NCBI GenBank assembly: GCA_020435415.1
Contig: JAGQZQ010000006.1
Coordinates: forward strand, 1 to 63,719
DNA length: 63,719 nucleotides
Source of the DNA: Flavobacteriales bacterium
GTDB lineage: Bacteria > Bacteroidota > Bacteroidia > JACJYZ01
Direction: 5' to 3'
Positions 56,684 through 63,700 of this stretch are shown piece after piece; position 1 is the first letter of the stretch, and every line of letters begins with the position of its first letter. The position numbers were made by a program, and so were the translations under genes. The notes beneath the pieces were generated by a model. The model searched no databases. It was not told the DNA's origin and worked only from the letters and a program-made list of their open reading frames with translations.

Positions 56684-58252
56684 TTAAGGCTGTGCCATGG
56701 TGAGGACGTACACACCGGAGCGGTGAACGACCGGTCCCAGTTTGTCCTGGAACATACATTCATCCGAACGATCGATGCGATAATCGTAAGGCAGAACGTG
56801 AGGTGATGTGTAGTTTTCACGATAGGATGCGGTAGCCTCCTCAAGGGCATTGCTTTCACCAACAGACATCACATCTACCTGATAAATAAGACTGAACTTC
56901 TCATACCACGGCAACAGAAAAAAAGGTTCATGGATGATCGCTTTATATCCGATCAGGGAGGACCGCTGCGTTTGACAGGCAAAGGATGAATTATCCGGAC
57001 TATATAGAAATACCGCATCCCTGGGTGTGTTATCCCTGATCCATTCGTGCATTTTGGTGAGATCTCCCAGAGGGTATCTTCCCACCTGATAACGCTCCTT
57101 CATACCGGCAACGGGTATATCTTCCGAGTTCAGCAACACCAATATCATCAGAACAACCGATACCAGCACCACGTTACGCAGGTAGGCCAGCATCGTGTAA
57201 AGGTGCCCGATCAGCTGGATCATTTTACTTAATACGATGCTGATCACCACACATGCGAGCAGATTCAGCCATATGGTTGTTTTGAACCATTGCAATTTAC
57301 CCGCCACCAACCATCCAACCTGCTCCAGCATCACATAGTATAATATAAGACCGAGAACAATGGTCCCCATCATCACCACGATTTTTTGCTTGTCGCCCTT
57401 TAAACGAAACAGATATAGCAACGGCAGGGTTGCAATGACCAATCCACCCAGCTTGTAGTAAGCCTTTGCCGGAAACAACGAAGGGATATAATGAAGGTGA
57501 TTTCTGAATACATATAGTATCTGATAGTAGAGGTCCTTATTATAAGGCACCGCATGAAAAAACTGACGGTAAAGGATGGGCATCAGCATTGGCGCAGATA
57601 CCAGTACAAACCACAGCAGGGTCTGCCAGGCCGTTCTCCAGCGATCATGCCTTTCCGTGATTAGATTTACGAACCAGAAGATCATGAACAATTGAAGGCC
57701 TACCAGAACCTGGAACAAAGATGCCAATCCCAGGAATACAGCCATCAATCGCCATTTCCGTTCGAAAAAAAACACGAACGCCCACATGGCCAGTGCCTTG
57801 GCAATGGTACTTGATATCAATGTCGGATACTGGATGTGATTGCCACCCACCGTGAACCCGTAAAAAATGATCAGTACCATCAGGGGGCTTATAAAAGGAG
57901 CGAGCCGGTCCAGACTCAACGCCGTAGTGATGCGCATGATTCCCCACGAACTAAAGGCAACGGATAACATGGTCAGGGTAAAGCAAACCACGCTCAAAGG
58001 CAGAACGGTGGACAAGGCATAAACAAGCAAAACATAGTAATGACGTATGGAAAATGCCTCGCGTGCGTAAGGGACAAAGTAGTCTCTGGTGAACAGGGTC
58101 GGATCTGCCTTCGCTAATACCAGCGGAAGGTGCTCTGCCTGGTCACCGGACATATATTCATACCCCCTCCACAGTAAAAATAAGCAGGCCACAAATAGGG
58201 AATAAATGAAAAATGTGCCCGAACTTTGAATATTGGGATTTTTGATCCGCAT
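56684..58252 (-). CDS. Polytopic membrane protein with C-terminal soluble domain, GT-C-like
   Basis: 522 residues from the ATG giving MRIKNPNIQSSGTFFIYSL. About ten to twelve helices are followed near residue 410 by a 110-residue soluble part (LTKMHEWIRDNTPRDAVFLYSPDNSSFACQTQRSSLIGYK). The first loop (DYFVPYAREAFSIRHYY) and the W-I-R-x-N-T-P-x-D-A stretch are seen in uncharacterised GT-C-like membrane proteins. I cannot name the function. It is divergent from the response regulator, and their promoter elements lie side by side. Confidence 0.75.
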   Translation of the reverse strand: MRIKNPNIQSSGTFFIYSLFVACLFLLWRGYEYMSGDQAEHLPLVLAKADPTLFTRDYFVPYAREAFSIRHYYVLLVYALSTVLPLSVVCFTLTMLSVAFSSWGIMRITTALSLDRLAPFISPLMVLIIFYGFTVGGNHIQYPTLISSTIAKALAMWAFVFFFERKWRLMAVFLGLASLFQVLVGLQLFMIFWFVNLITERHDRWRTAWQTLLWFVLVSAPMLMPILYRQFFHAVPYNKDLYYQILYVFRNHLHYIPSLFPAKAYYKLGGLVIATLPLLYLFRLKGDKQKIVVMMGTIVLGLILYYVMLEQVGWLVAGKLQWFKTTIWLNLLACVVISIVLSKMIQLIGHLYTMLAYLRNVVLVSVVLMILVLLNSEDIPVAGMKERYQVGRYPLGDLTKMHEWIRDNTPRDAVFLYSPDNSSFACQTQRSSLIGYKAIIHEPFFLLPWYEKFSLIYQVDVMSVGESNALEEATASYRENYTSPHVLPYDYRIDRSDECMFQDKLGPVVHRSGVYVLTMAQP

Positions 58253-58262
58253 GCCTCTCACA

Positions 58263-58281
58263 CAAAAGTAGCTTATTTTTG
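58263..58281. promoter_or_regulatory. Back-to-back -7 elements for two divergent genes
   Basis: TATTTTTG on the plus strand (58274-58281) fits TAnnTTTG 22 bp before the regulator start. TACTTTTG on the minus strand (58263-58270) fits it 10 bp before the membrane-protein start. The boxes are only 3 bp apart, so the two promoters would compete for polymerase. Confidence 0.5.
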
Positions 58282-58303
58282 CCATGCAACATCACGGCGG
58301 GAT

Positions 58304-59005
58304 ATGACACGAATATTACTGGTAGAAGATGAACCACACCTCAGAAAGACCCTGAAGGTGAACCTGGAGCTGGACGGCTACGAGGTAGTTCCCGTTGGAG
58401 ATGGCAAGGAAGCCATCCGCCTTTATCCGCAATCCCGGTTTGATCTGGTGATCCTGGATGTGATGATGCCGGGCGTGGATGGATACCACGTTTGCGAACA
58501 TATCCGGCTACGTGATAAAGAAACACCCATTCTTTTCTTAACGGCGAGAAATACCAGTCAGGATCGCGTACGCGGCCTCAAACTCGGAGGTGATGATTAC
58601 CTGGGAAAACCATTCGATCTCGAGGAACTCAAGATACGTATTCAGAAACTGTTGATGCGCAGGCAGCCCGCTTCAACAAACGAATCCAAACAGTTCAACA
58701 TCGGAGGGCACACTGTTCACTTCAACACCTTTGAAGTACATCGTTCAGACGGCAGCCACATTGCCCTCAGTCAAAAAGAAGTACTGCTGTTAAAACTCCT
58801 GACAGAAAGAAAAAACGAAGTGGTGTCCCGCGAAGAGATCCTGGAAAAGGTCTGGGGTTATGATGTGTATCCGTCGACAAGAACCATTGACAACCATATC
58901 GTTAACTTCAGAAAATACTTTGAGCCCAATCCAAGGCAACCCAAATACTTTCACTCGGTCAGAGGGGTGGGGTATAAATTCACACATGATGAAAAAGTTA
59001 ACTGA
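58304..59005 (+). CDS. OmpR/PhoB-family response regulator
   Basis: 233 residues from the ATG giving MTRILLVEDEPHLRKTL; a longer frame upstream overlaps the divergent promoter region. The receiver domain has the acidic pair VEDE, the phosphorylated Asp52 in LVILDVMMPG and Lys in LGKPFDLEEL. The C-terminal winged helix has VSREEILEKVWGYDVYPSTRTIDNHIVNFRKYFE and KYFHSVRGVGYKF. No histidine kinase gene is adjacent, so it is an orphan here. Target genes unknown. Confidence 0.93.
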   Translation: MTRILLVEDEPHLRKTLKVNLELDGYEVVPVGDGKEAIRLYPQSRFDLVILDVMMPGVDGYHVCEHIRLRDKETPILFLTARNTSQDRVRGLKLGGDDYLGKPFDLEELKIRIQKLLMRRQPASTNESKQFNIGGHTVHFNTFEVHRSDGSHIALSQKEVLLLKLLTERKNEVVSREEILEKVWGYDVYPSTRTIDNHIVNFRKYFEPNPRQPKYFHSVRGVGYKFTHDEKVN

Positions 59006-59015
59006 TCGTTGCCTG

Positions 59016-59046
59016 TTGTAAATCAAAACAGGGTTTTATATCTTTG
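59016..59046 (+). promoter_or_regulatory. Promoter of the cysteine operon
   Basis: TTG at 59016-59018 and TATCTTTG at 59039-59046, with 20 bp between them, match the Bacteroidota -33/-7 promoter form well. Transcription should begin near 59052, about 225 nt before the sulfite reductase start, leaving a long leader. Confidence 0.7.
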
Positions 59047-59073
59047 CGTTGCAGTCCATGATCGGGCAATTGC

Positions 59074-59202
59074 ATGAACATGAAAATCAACGTAATCCCA
59101 GCCATCACCCTGAATTCATTCAACGCTTGTTGTTGTATGTGTTGCTGCTGTACTGACGAGCAGAACAGGAATGGTGCCACCGGGATGCTAACAACCATAT
59201 AG
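59074..59202 (+). CDS. Poly-cysteine leader peptide of a predicted attenuator
   Basis: 42 codons from ATG 59074 (ATG 59080 is also in frame) to TAG 59200-59202. Residues 18-27 read ACCCMCCCCT: seven Cys codons, five TGT and two TGC, in eight positions. The ORF lies wholly in the untranslated leader of the sulfite reductase gene, and a strong terminator follows 20 bp after its stop. Ribosome stalling on these codons when Cys-tRNA is scarce would change folding of the RNA beyond. CTGCT in the Cys codons (59145-59149) can pair with AGCAG (59159-59163), and CAGGAA (59166-59171) can pair with TTCCTG (59229-59234) in the terminator arm. Confidence 0.75.
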   Translation: MNMKINVIPAITLNSFNACCCMCCCCTDEQNRNGATGMLTTI

Positions 59203-59221
59203 AACTATCCCAAACCTATAG

Positions 59222-59259
59222 AAGGCCTTTCCTGCTAACCCCGGAAAGGCCTTTTTTTT
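59222..59259 (+). terminator. Leader terminator (attenuator) in front of the sulfite reductase gene
   Basis: A perfect 11-bp stem (AAGGCCTTTCC, 59222-59232, with GGAAAGGCCTT, 59243-59253), a 10-nt loop and a run of eight T residues (59252-59259). It sits 17 nt before the ATG at 59277. The upstream response regulator stop is over 200 bp away with a promoter between, so it is better explained as a conditional terminator in the operon leader than as the end of the upstream gene. Confidence 0.9.
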
Positions 59260-59276
59260 GACTAAAACAACAAACC

Positions 59277-61391
59277 ATGCAAAGCTTCAGGACCGAACTT
59301 GAAAATCCCATCGTCGAAAAGGACATCATCGACCTTGAAAAGAAGATCCGTCAATTCAGGGAAGGAAAAATTGACGAAGAAAAATTTCGCAGTCTCAGAC
59401 TGGCCAGGGGGGTATATGGCCAGCGCCAACCTGGGGTGCAGATGGTACGGATCAAATTTCCATTCGGAAAGATCACCGTGGAGCAGTTCCGTCGCCTGTC
59501 TGATGTTTCCGATACGTTTTCAACAGGAAAGCTTCATCTGACCACCCGTCAGGATGTTCAGATTCATTACGTAAGTCTTGACAAGACCCCGGAACTCTGG
59601 GCGGAACTGGAGAAAGACGAAATCACCATCCGCGAAGCTTGCGGAAATACCGTACGTAACGTCACCGCATCTGCGCTCGCCGGCGTGGATGTGGATGAGC
59701 CGTTTGACGTGTCTCCATACGCTCATGGTATCTTCAGTTATTTTCTGAGAAAACCCTTCGGTCAGGACCTCGGAAGAAAATTCAAAATTGCCCTCTCATC
59801 TTCAGAAAAAGATACGGCCTATACTTTTATGCATGACCTGGGACTCATTCCTAAGATCCAAAACCAAAACGGTCAGGAAGTGAAAGGTTTTAAAGTAATG
59901 ATCGGGGGTGGCCTGGGCGCACAACCCTATCCCGCACTTGTGGCCTATGATTTCCTGCCGGAGGACGAAGTGATCCCACTCATCGAAGCGATCATCAGGG
60001 TTTTTGACCGCCATGGGGAAAGAGCACGCAGAAACAAAGCCAGGATCAAATACCTCGTCCATGAAATGGGATTGGATGCCTTTATGAAATTGGTTGCTGA
60101 TGAAAAACCAGCGCTGACTCATCAGAAGGTGCCTTTTGACCTGTCTCAATGGAAAGACGTAGGACCCGGACCAGACACCCTCCCCAACGGAGCCACGCCG
60201 GCGAATGAAGATAAATTCGAAGCCTGGAAGAAATCCAATGTGATAGCACAAAAACAACCCGGATTCTTTGCGGTTCAGGTAAAAATCCTTCTTGGAAACT
60301 TATCGACAAAAGAAGCCAGGGCCTTTGCAGATATCGTTCAGCAATATGCCGCCAACGACGTGCGCATTACGATCAACCAGGGTTTTGTGCTACGTTATGT
60401 TCGTGAACATGCATTGGTTCATGTTTTCAACGCACTCGAAGCACTTGGTTTTGCAGAGCCGGGATTTGACAGCGTAGCGGATATCACCGCCTGCCCCGGA
60501 ACCGATACCTGCAACCTGGGAATTTCCAACAGCACCGCCACAGCCGTTGAACTGGAACGGGTGATCAAGGAAGAATACCCCGACCTTATTTACAACAACG
60601 ACATCAAGATCAAGATCAGCGGATGCATGAATTCATGCGGACAGCACGGCCTGGCCCATATCGGTTTCCACGGAAGCTCGATCAAAAACGGCGAACATAC
60701 CCTACCCGCCCTTCAGCTGCTTCTCGGAGGAGGTATCGTAGGTGATGGTATCGGACGGTTTGCCGACAAGATCATTAAAGTGCCCAGCAAAAGAGCGCCT
60801 CAGGTGCTCAGAGATTTGCTCGACGATTATGACCGGAACGGAAATGATAACGAGCTTTTCAACGTGTACTACGACCGTCAGGGGAAAGATTATTTCTATC
60901 AGCTACTCAAAGAGCTTGGCAATAAGGAGACCGTGGAAGAGTCCGACTACATCGACTGGGGTAACAGCGACCGCTATAAACAAGAAGTGGGTGTGGGAGA
61001 ATGTGCCGGCGTCGTGATCGATCTTATCCAGACCCTGCTACTGGAAGCGGAAGAAAAACTGGACTGGGCCCAAGAAGCACTCGACCAGAATCTCGCCGCC
61101 GATTCCATGTACCATAGCTACAGTGCCCTGGTAAGTGGAGCCAAAGCCATCCTTACCGCGCAAGGCATAAAATGCAATACACAAACCGGAATCATCCGTG
61201 ATTTCCAGGAAAACTTCGTGGATACCGGAAAGATCAAAGTAGAGGGCGGATTTGAAGCACTCGCCCTGCGAATCAATAAGCAACAAGCCAGCATTGAACT
61301 GGCAGCGGAATACCTGAAAGAAGCGACCGATTTCCTTGCTTCACTGAAGGCCTTCCATCAACACAAAGAAAACAATGCCGCATCCGTCTGA
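59277..61391 (+). CDS. sir: Assimilatory sulfite (or nitrite) reductase, siroheme type, with C-terminal helical extension
   Basis: 704 residues. Two ferredoxin-like/SIR repeats are visible: GKLHLTTRQDVQIHYV with REACGNTVRNVTA, and VRITINQGFVLRYV. The 4Fe-4S/siroheme cysteines lie in ACPGTDTCNLG and SGCMNSCGQHG. It reduces sulfite to sulfide with six electrons. About 140 extra C-terminal residues (from VGVGECAGVVIDL on) are helical with HSYSALVSGAKAIL, resembling a HEPN-like domain. The adjacent siroheme and cysteine synthase genes favour sulfite over nitrite as substrate. First gene of the operon. Confidence 0.92.
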   Translation: MQSFRTELENPIVEKDIIDLEKKIRQFREGKIDEEKFRSLRLARGVYGQRQPGVQMVRIKFPFGKITVEQFRRLSDVSDTFSTGKLHLTTRQDVQIHYVSLDKTPELWAELEKDEITIREACGNTVRNVTASALAGVDVDEPFDVSPYAHGIFSYFLRKPFGQDLGRKFKIALSSSEKDTAYTFMHDLGLIPKIQNQNGQEVKGFKVMIGGGLGAQPYPALVAYDFLPEDEVIPLIEAIIRVFDRHGERARRNKARIKYLVHEMGLDAFMKLVADEKPALTHQKVPFDLSQWKDVGPGPDTLPNGATPANEDKFEAWKKSNVIAQKQPGFFAVQVKILLGNLSTKEARAFADIVQQYAANDVRITINQGFVLRYVREHALVHVFNALEALGFAEPGFDSVADITACPGTDTCNLGISNSTATAVELERVIKEEYPDLIYNNDIKIKISGCMNSCGQHGLAHIGFHGSSIKNGEHTLPALQLLLGGGIVGDGIGRFADKIIKVPSKRAPQVLRDLLDDYDRNGNDNELFNVYYDRQGKDYFYQLLKELGNKETVEESDYIDWGNSDRYKQEVGVGECAGVVIDLIQTLLLEAEEKLDWAQEALDQNLAADSMYHSYSALVSGAKAILTAQGIKCNTQTGIIRDFQENFVDTGKIKVEGGFEALALRINKQQASIELAAEYLKEATDFLASLKAFHQHKENNAASV

Positions 61392-62160
61392 ACCGGTAAA
61401 AGGTAAACTGACCATCCTCGGTGCTGGTCCGGGTGATCCGGAACTCATCACCCTGAAAGGTATCCGTGCATTGCGCAGCGCCGATGTGCTGCTGTACGAT
61501 GCCCTGGTCAATCCCGACTTGCTGGATCATGCACCCGCAAATAGTCAAAAGATTTATGTGGGAAAGAAAGCCGGCAACCACCGCTACAGCCAGGAAGAAA
61601 TTCATGCACTGATAAGTCACTTCGCACTTCAGGGTTTGCATGTGGTAAGACTCAAGGGCGGTGATCCTTTTGTATTCGGAAGAGGTCGTGAAGAATGGGC
61701 TTACGCTGCAACACTGGGGATCACCGTAGATGTAATACCGGGTATCAGCAGCAGCATCGCCGTACCGGAAGGTGCAGGGATACCACTCACCCACAGAAAA
61801 CTTGCTGAAAGTTTTTGGGTGGTGACCGGCACTACATCCGGGAACAAATTATCGGATGACCTCAGGCTGGCAGCCCAATCATCTGCTACCATCGTGATCC
61901 TGATGGGGCTGGGAAAGATACACGATATCGTCAGTCTTCTCGCATCTCATGGCAAATCGGATACCCCTGCCGCCGTTATATCTTCCGGCAGTACCTCCGA
62001 CGAAAAGGTCATCCTTGGAAAAGTAAATGACATCGCCGACAAGGTGCATGAGGCTGAGATCACATCACCTGCCATTATCGTTGTAGGCGATGTGGTGGCA
62101 CTTGCCGAGCCATCCGAATGGATCCGATTGGAGCAAACCATTAACGCAGAGGTCCGATGA
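61375..62160 (+). CDS. cobA: Uroporphyrinogen-III C-methyltransferase
   Basis: 261 residues; overlaps the reductase end by 17 bp. It adds two methyl groups to uroporphyrinogen III to give precorrin-2, the first step to siroheme. Motifs: LTILGAGPGDPELITLKG, ADVLLYDALVNPDLL, VVRLKGGDPFVFGRGREEW and VIPGISSSIAVPEGAGIPLTHR. It supplies siroheme for the reductase before it. The stop overlaps the next start by 4 nt. Confidence 0.96.
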   Translation: MPHPSEPVKGKLTILGAGPGDPELITLKGIRALRSADVLLYDALVNPDLLDHAPANSQKIYVGKKAGNHRYSQEEIHALISHFALQGLHVVRLKGGDPFVFGRGREEWAYAATLGITVDVIPGISSSIAVPEGAGIPLTHRKLAESFWVVTGTTSGNKLSDDLRLAAQSSATIVILMGLGKIHDIVSLLASHGKSDTPAAVISSGSTSDEKVILGKVNDIADKVHEAEITSPAIIVVGDVVALAEPSEWIRLEQTINAEVR

Positions 62161-62762
62161 ACATCCAGACGCAAGCCAGTCAGAATATACTCCTGCCGCT
62201 CTTCATGAAGCTGGACGGTCACCGCATTCTGGTGATAGGCGGTGGAAAGATCGGTCTGGAAAAGATCACCGCCATCCTGCGCAATGACCCTTCGGCCGCA
62301 CTGACGGTGGTTGCGCCGGAGATCCTTCCTGAGATCACCGAACTGTCTGCACAATACGACATCCGGCTTCACAATCGTCCGTTCGAAACGGATGACTTGA
62401 ACAGCATCTCGCTTGTATTCGCGGCCACAGGCCTGGCGGACGTCAACAAAATTATTCATGCAGAATCCAGAAAACGATCCATCCTGATCAACGTGGCGGA
62501 TACGCCCGCACTCTGCGATTTCTATATGTCTTCCATTGTGATAAAGGGAGACCTGAAGATCGCCATATCCACGAATGGAAAATCTCCTACGTTAGGAAAA
62601 CGTATGCGCGCATTCCTGGAAGAATGGCTGCCCGACAGCATCGGGGAAGTGATGGAACGCCTCCACCGTATCCGCAACAATATGAAGACGGATTTCGAAC
62701 AAAAAGTAACCGAATTAAATCGCCTGACAAAGGTGTTTGAAGAAAGTAACAAAGGATCATGA
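62157..62762 (+). CDS. Precorrin-2 dehydrogenase/sirohydrochlorin ferrochelatase (CysG N-terminal/Met8 type)
   Basis: 201 residues. An NAD-binding motif RILVIGGGKIGLEKI (about 23-37) opens the dehydrogenase domain, and LVFAATGLADVNKIIHAES and INVADTPALCDFYMSSIVIKGDLKIAISTNGKSPTLGKRMRAFLEEWLP match Met8/CysG-N proteins. It oxidises precorrin-2 and inserts iron to finish siroheme. Like a split CysG, it works together with the cobA product. 4-nt overlaps on both sides. Confidence 0.93.
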   Translation: MNIQTQASQNILLPLFMKLDGHRILVIGGGKIGLEKITAILRNDPSAALTVVAPEILPEITELSAQYDIRLHNRPFETDDLNSISLVFAATGLADVNKIIHAESRKRSILINVADTPALCDFYMSSIVIKGDLKIAISTNGKSPTLGKRMRAFLEEWLPDSIGEVMERLHRIRNNMKTDFEQKVTELNRLTKVFEESNKGS

Positions 62763-63700
62763 GCATTACCACGGCACATCAAAAAGATACGCTGGAACAC
62801 CGCCTGGCCACCCTGGCTCCGTTTGTGGGCCGTACCCCGCTCTTTCCCATTCAAAGGGCTTATCAGAAAGAGGGAGTCCGGATATTCGCCAAGCTCGAAT
62901 GGATGCAGATGGGTCAGAGTGTGAAGTCCAGACCCGGATTTCAGATCATTTCAGATGCCATTCTCGAAGGTCACCTGCGCCATGGCATGGGCTTGCTGGA
63001 TGCAACCAGCGGAAACACAGGAATTGCCTATGCCACCTTCGGTGCCGCATTGGGTATCCCGGTGACACTGTGCCTGCCGGAAAATGCCAGCGAAGAACGG
63101 AAGACCATCCTGCGCTCCCTCGGCGTGAACATCATTTTCACCTCACGCTTTGAAGGCACGGACGGCGCCCAGGAAAAAGCCAAGGAGATCGCAGCTGCCA
63201 ATCCGGAACAATATTTCTATGCGGACCAGTATGCAAACGACAACAACTGGAAAGCCCATTTTGAGCATACCGGACCGGAGATCATCGAGCAAACCGAAGG
63301 TCGGATCACGCATTTTGTAGCCGGACTGGGAACAACCGGAACGTTCACCGGAACCGGTAGAAAATTAAAGGAATGGAATCCCTCCACCCGCCTGATCGGA
63401 CTGCAACCCAATACCCCCATGCATGGCCTGGAAGGATGGAAACATTTGGAAACAGCCATCGTCCCGAAAATTTATGATCCGCTGGTTCCGGACGACATTC
63501 ATGAAGTGGATACCGCCGAATCTTATGAAGTGATCAAAAAAGTAGCAGCAGATGAAGGACTGCTCCTCAGTCCGTCGTCCGCCGCCAACCTGTTAGGCGC
63601 CATGAAGGTCGCTGACAGCATCAATGAAGGCGTGGTCGTAACGGTATTTCCGGACAATGGCGATAAGTATCAGGAGGTATTCAAAAATCTATTCGGATGA
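62759..63700 (+). CDS. cysM: Cysteine synthase, CysM-like
   Basis: 313 residues. A PLP enzyme that makes cysteine from O-acetylserine and sulfide. FVGRTPLFPIQR, the PLP-Lys in MQMGQSVKSRPGFQII, the phosphate-binding DATSGNTGIAYATFG and FVAGLGTTGTFTGTGRKL are all visible. The Lys region reads SVKSR where most family members have SxKDR, a form typical of CysM-like relatives. Last visible gene of the operon; it closes the path from sulfite to cysteine. Confidence 0.93.
   Translation: MSITTAHQKDTLEHRLATLAPFVGRTPLFPIQRAYQKEGVRIFAKLEWMQMGQSVKSRPGFQIISDAILEGHLRHGMGLLDATSGNTGIAYATFGAALGIPVTLCLPENASEERKTILRSLGVNIIFTSRFEGTDGAQEKAKEIAAANPEQYFYADQYANDNNWKAHFEHTGPEIIEQTEGRITHFVAGLGTTGTFTGTGRKLKEWNPSTRLIGLQPNTPMHGLEGWKHLETAIVPKIYDPLVPDDIHEVDTAESYEVIKKVAADEGLLLSPSSAANLLGAMKVADSINEGVVVTVFPDNGDKYQEVFKNLFG

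Follow-up and report, generated by a model that had tools for sequence, protein, structure and literature searches.

A short open reading frame (ORF) with seven Cys codons, followed by a hairpin and a row of T's, lies ahead of a sulfite reductase-type gene in the window analysed here (the whole stretch of 63,719 nucleotides from a Flavobacteriales bacterium), and it raises the question of whether the operon downstream is controlled by attenuation in response to cysteine. An earlier note, made from the letters of this DNA alone, had listed a promoter, a 42-codon ORF with CCCMCCCC, a terminator with an 11-bp stem and eight T's, and then genes for sulfite reductase, siroheme synthesis (two) and cysteine synthase. 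The coordinates and description of the promoter and ORF proved correct on re-check, the terminator was confirmed in the sequence, and the gene assignments were borne out by profile matches and context (Table 1).

Table 1. Features of the leader region and operon in the window, and loci of poly-Cys ORFs at other sulfur genes
Feature	Position or loci	Strand	Remarks
Response-regulator gene	58226-59005	+	68 nt lie between its end and the leader ATG
Bacteroidota-type promoter	59015-59046	+	−33 GTTG 59015-59018; 20-nt spacer; −7 box TATCTTTG 59039-59046
Leader ORF MNMKINVIPAITLNSFNACCCMCCCCTDEQNRNGATGMLTTI*	59074-59202	+	ATG start; 42 aa/42 codons; stop codon 59200-59202
Cys codon run CCCMCCCC	59128-59151	+	Seven Cys codons and one Met; candidate stall site
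Segment 2, candidate antiterminator 5' segment CAGGAATGG	59166-59174	+	13-14 nt past last Cys codon
Segment 3 CCTTTCCTG	59226-59234	+	Common to antiterminator and terminator 5' arm
Intrinsic terminator	59222-59259	+	11-bp stem 59222-59232/59243-59253; 10-nt loop; T's 59252-59259
sir, NirA/sulfite-reductase-type sirohaem protein, 704 aa	59277-61391	+	NCBIfam NirA family, E 1e-70, below equivalog cut-off
Uroporphyrinogen-III C-methyltransferase (SUMT, sirohaem synthesis)	61375-62160	+	Family match above cut-off
Sirohaem synthase N-terminal domain protein (precorrin-2 dehydrogenase/ferrochelatase type)	62157-62762	+	TIGR01470, above cut-off
Cysteine synthase, CysM/CysK family	62759-63700	+	TIGR01138, E 5e-89, below equivalog cut-off
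SAM riboswitch (RF00162), poly-Cys ORF, metY	L217, L218, L220, L257, L310, L329, L330
SAM riboswitch (RF00162), poly-Cys ORF, metX	L225, L277
Further poly-Cys ORFs	L328 (cysH); L308, L343, L344 (hom); L350, L352 (metX then hom)

The leader and its possible structures in the window

The −7 box matches TANNTTTG, the Bacteroidota −7 promoter consensus, at 8 of 8 positions, and the GTTG upstream of it is a candidate −33 element. A sigma-70 scan found no promoter at the leader site because this promoter is of a different type. Rfam covariance models gave no match anywhere in the window at the gathering threshold, with no riboswitch or T-box family match in the leader, and just two sub-threshold chance matches at a permissive threshold. 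The Cys codons begin at 59128, 59131, 59134, 59140, 59143, 59146 and 59149 and are a mixture of TGT and TGC. The sir protein matches NirA/SiR families, in all cases below the equivalog cut-offs, and its assignment to sulfite therefore rests on context; at E ≤ 0.001 it has matches in 106 of 395 genomes of the class. The contig ends just past the cysteine synthase gene. On the other side of the leader, the minus strand at 56684-58285 encodes a membrane-like protein of 533 aa that contains a DUF6798 domain.

The terminator hairpin has a predicted energy of −17.4 kcal/mol, its 5' arm starts 18-19 nt past the leader stop codon, and the first two of its eight T's also close the stem. It escaped a generic terminator scan because its loop is longer than the 8 nt allowed there. 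The earlier note had proposed that CAGGAA (59166-59171) pairs with TTCCTG (59229-59234) to break this hairpin. That pairing is present, is sited as in most relatives (see below), and extends with one mismatch to a duplex of segments 2 and 3 (the 2:3 duplex) of −14.4 kcal/mol, which ranks 4 against 52 other terminator arms; 11% of shuffled sequences equal it, so that it is not significant in the window alone (P 0.11). When the terminator 3' arm was left out of the fold, the antiterminator was the minimum-energy structure, whereas with that arm included the terminator prevailed, at −27.3 compared with −17.0 when the antiterminator was forced. As the terminator is the more stable of the two, the switch must be kinetic, as it is in known attenuators. 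The other antiterminator put forward in the note, CCGGG with CCCGG, found no support, as it appeared neither in the antiterminator fold nor in the best duplex.

Leader units at sir loci of Bacteroidota

Relatives, an even draw of 395 genomes of the class, and 80 named genome contigs yielded a sample of 170 sir loci, of whose upstream regions 166 were distinct. Of the 166 regions, 24 held a short ORF in which four or more of eight successive residues are Cys, and in 20 of these 24 a terminator followed; dinucleotide shuffles gave about 0.1 such ORFs per set and 0.0 with a terminator, and the reverse strand of the same regions gave two and none, respectively. Leu-rich ORFs, Leu being the commonest residue by chance, numbered 21 compared with 17.7 in shuffles. 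Relaxing the cut to three Cys in eight residues yielded 53 leader-terminator units at 42 sir loci. These loci span about 15 families by a hand count of the family labels of the genomes, and the sequences of their units are almost unalignable. The earlier note had suggested examining relatives for conservation of the Cys codons and terminator, and the recurrence of the unit at 42 loci speaks in favor of its reading. Named carriers include Mucilaginibacter aquatilis, Chitinophaga sp. Ak27, and Pedobacter schmidteae MAGs; in Pedobacter, Mucilaginibacter, Parapedobacter, and Chitinophaga the leader is often a reduced one that has the terminator but only one to three Cys codons. Many sir loci have no Cys-run leader directly upstream.

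Eleven of the 42 loci carry a tandem pair of complete Cys-leader/terminator units before sir (L005, L006, L008, L010, L015, L050, L058, L060, L063, L162, and L200), and each unit has its own candidate antiterminator segment. At four loci (L049, L054, L057, and L099) the leader/terminator is separated from sir by a gene whose sequence was read as that of a peroxiredoxin, an arrangement that suggests co-control with sulfite reductase. In 29 of the 53 units, compared with 2.6 expected, the 60 nt ahead of the leader ATG contain a TANNTTTG box, which lies 4-27 nt from the ATG. Transcription starts several bases past a −7 box, and many of the leader mRNAs would thus be leaderless or nearly so.

Among related leaders Cys was kept at 76 of 100 aligned positions (76%) and other residues at 209 of 436 (48%; Fisher P 4e-7, computed on non-independent pairs), which is the Cys-codon conservation whose absence in relatives the note had named as grounds for refutation. 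Synonymous differences affect 22 of the 76 conserved Cys codons, and the peptide sequence outside the run differs widely between families.

For the pairing comparison, the stretch from the last Cys codon to the terminator was paired with the 5' arm and loop of the same leader's terminator. Across the 53 leaders, which include close relatives and are thus not fully independent, the mean pairing was −14.1 kcal/mol, compared with −10.2 when partners were permuted among leaders (z −10.8; 0 of 5000) and −8.6 for shuffled stretches; individually, 39 of the 53 were at or below the 5% level. Leaders therefore pair better with their own terminator arm than with those of other leaders, which bears out at the level of the family the pairing expected from the note. 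The geometry is also constrained. In 46 of the 53 leaders, compared with 28% in shuffles, the start of the pairing segment falls 5-16 nt 3' of the last Cys codon, and the front edge of a ribosome stalled on the Cys run would, from its footprint, lie just short of that start. In the relatives 18-58 nt separate the stop codon from the terminator, and no leader among the 53 has fewer than 18 nt, a spacing that can accommodate a ribosome on the stop codon. A 1:2 protector hairpin, which in classical attenuators forms in the absence of leader translation, had weak support across leaders, at −8.0 versus −7.0, and was significant at 5% in 9 of 52, the window not being among them.

Readings of the leader and known systems

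Taken together, the recurrence, matched pairing, geometry, codon conservation, promoter boxes, and cysteine-making target genes support the classical reading, and we consider that the window leader is very probably a ribosome-mediated, cysteine-sensing transcription attenuator before the sulfite reductase operon; the earlier proposal that a ribosome stalls in the Cys run is to that extent upheld, at the level of sequence. We infer that the ORF is translated, that ribosomes stall in it, that transcription can end early and that the operon responds to cysteine. Transcription would start just 5' of the leader ORF, with the ribosome trailing the polymerase. With ample Cys-tRNA, the ribosome would pass the Cys codons and cover segment 2, the hairpin at 59222-59253 would form, and transcription would end; with scarce Cys-tRNA, it would halt in the Cys run and leave segment 2 free to pair with segment 3, no terminator would form, and sir-SUMT-sirohaem-cysM would be transcribed. 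Counting against this explanation are the window's own 2:3 duplex, which 11% of shuffles equal, the weakly supported 1:2 hairpin, the Leu-rich frame that spans the Cys run (see below), and the many sir loci with no such leader directly upstream. In addition, 23-28 nt separate the end of segment 2 from that of the stop codon; a ribosome paused on this codon would have segment 2 uncovered to its rear, and termination would therefore depend on timing.

A variant compatible with the Cys attenuator, which we regard as unlikely, is that the Met codons are read too and the leader senses both sulfur amino acids. Among residues other than Cys, Met alone approaches the enrichment seen for Cys, with Met-rich ORFs in 10 of the 166 regions (nine with a terminator) compared with 0.2 in shuffles; non-start Met makes up 11.5% of the residues in the 53 leaders and is interleaved with Cys, 88 of 167 Met adjoining one (MCMCMCMCCC is an example). 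The window run, however, holds just one Met among its seven Cys, and the Met may be a by-product of ATG/TGT overlap or of start-site selection.

It is improbable, in our judgment, that the Cys-run ORF senses cysteine but acts translationally or through Rho, the hairpin not being decisive. Control of that kind is known from mycobacteria, whose poly-Cys upstream ORFs lack conserved intrinsic terminators (PMC1262725; Canestrari 2020 as cited in PMC13236596), and it would fit the poly-Cys ORFs before metY, metX, hom, and cysH described below, where a scan for intrinsic terminators detected none; at sir, on the other hand, the terminator, its spacing, and the matched antiterminator are conserved in 53 leaders. 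Still less credible is a leucine leader, in which the frame sensed would be the Leu-rich one (...RLLLYVLLLY*) that is open across the Cys run at 59058-59156. Its ATG (59058) is nearer the promoter than that of the Cys frame, with 11 nt between it and the −7 box, and a ribosome at its stop codon (59154-59156) would cover segment 2; yet it is the Cys frame that is kept in relatives, alternative frames across the run being open from an ATG in 9 of 106 cases, this one included, and the genes downstream belong to the cysteine pathway. Least likely of all, the hairpin would be the 3' terminator of the response-regulator gene and the ORF spurious, for which one could cite the common strand, the 68 nt from the gene end to the leader ATG and the finding of no other terminator between them in the scan, but against which stand the leader-terminator layout at 42 sir loci, the tandem arrangement at 11, the matching of each antiterminator to its own terminator, and the promoter box 5' of the ORF in more than half of the units.

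The preferred reading, cysteine-sensing attenuation, has close precedents. At the level of sequence the window leader falls within the definition of a classical attenuator, as exemplified by trp, his, leu, and thr of Proteobacteria and trp in Actinobacteria: like these it has an ORF with a run of codons for the pathway amino acid, an antiterminator segment beyond it, and an intrinsic terminator between the ORF and the first gene of a biosynthetic operon, the antiterminator being established for the family and present in the window with the limited significance given above. It differs in that the amino acid sensed would be cysteine, in the Bacteroidota promoter close to the leader ATG, in the absence of a clearly conserved 1:2 protector hairpin, and in the tandem units. 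The mycobacterial poly-Cys leaderless uORFs (PMC1262725; Canestrari 2020 as cited in PMC13236596 and PMC9094748) are similar in their Cys runs, in being short and near-leaderless, and in preceding cysteine or sulfur genes; as in the Cys-run leaders of Actinobacteria (PMC1262725), they have no conserved terminator, and their Cys run is near the stop codon, whereas in the window 16 codons separate the last Cys codon from the stop, and the leader has both an intrinsic terminator and an antiterminator that matches it. In Rhodobacterales, uORFC-8-2 before cysS is predicted to act by Cys-codon ribosome-mediated attenuation with an intrinsic terminator (PMC8632094); it has two conserved tandem Cys codons and precedes a tRNA-synthetase gene in alphaproteobacteria, in contrast to the up to seven Cys codons found here in another phylum, where the first gene is sir. 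Within the same phylum, clues to leader-peptide attenuation at amino-acid operons come from Flavobacterium psychrophilum, with no cysteine or sulfite reductase case in the main text of that report (PMC9723704). A 2010 terminator survey gave leader peptides as known from Proteobacteria and Actinobacteria and added a Firmicutes case of its own (PMC2965389).

The freely readable literature yielded no report of a Cys attenuator in Bacteroidota or for sulfite reductase, and no description of how Bacteroidota sense cysteine supply. The claim of novelty in the earlier note thus stands for the phylum; it does not extend to cysteine attenuation itself, which is known in mycobacteria and predicted in Rhodobacterales (PMC8632094), and the new elements are the phylum in which it occurs, the genes it would control, and its particulars. 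If the attenuator reading is right, cysteine would be sensed directly through codons across much of Bacteroidota. Bacteria of this phylum largely do without Shine-Dalgarno initiation, and ribosome-mediated attenuation would be extended to such bacteria. The predictions are specific and cheap to examine: one hairpin, one segment, and seven codons.

Poly-Cys ORFs at metY, metX, hom, and cysH

A class-wide search for MCCCC-coding DNA (ATGTGYTGYTGYTGY) gave 130 matches that were examined. Most of the 130 matches listed resembled chance, falling in other frames of coding sequence, and a subset were ORFs with the Cys run abutting the stop codon ahead of metY, metX, hom, and cysH (Table 1), a layout closer to the mycobacterial one than that at sir. 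At nine scanned loci a SAM riboswitch (RF00162) lies just upstream of the poly-Cys ORF, in which the Cys run is at or near the stop codon, and the two together appear to form a leader with two inputs. Some sir genes without a nearby leader of their own sit in hom/metX operons headed by a poly-Cys ORF (L343, L344, and L350), and the sir gene of L352 is likely placed in the same way.

These arrangements raise the prospect of a phylum-wide sulfur regulon with Cys-codon leaders of two designs, a proposal for which we hold the case evenly balanced. The first design would be the intrinsic-terminator attenuator, often doubled, at sulfite reductase; the second, before metY, metX, hom, and cysH, would be a poly-Cys ORF that has no terminator and often directly follows a SAM riboswitch, an order in which SAM would be read first and Cys-tRNA next. 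Met codons may add a methionine input. The serial copies at sir and the SAM-riboswitch pairing at metY and metX would then be natural cases of layered control.

In the genome from which the window comes, no poly-Cys leader was seen at the cysH operon (L339/L340, contig C136) or at metB/metY-like loci. Four consecutive TGY codons gave 47 raw pattern matches there; (TGY)n is common in other frames, and a bare TGY pattern is therefore no evidence of a leader. The genes of the L340/L339 operon read as those of a JAMM protease (Mec+-like), a ThiS-like (CysO-like) protein, a MoeZ/ThiF-like protein with rhodanese, cysH, and hom, these names having been given by eye except for cysH, which was assigned by match; the operon resembles the mycobacterial protein-bound-sulfide route to cysteine. 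Elsewhere, an ORF at L268 that ends CCCCCCC* and one at L269 that ends CCCCCCSCC* lie 52 nt before a phytanoyl-CoA-dioxygenase-family gene, beyond which, at L268, is a CDP-alcohol phosphatidyltransferase-like gene.
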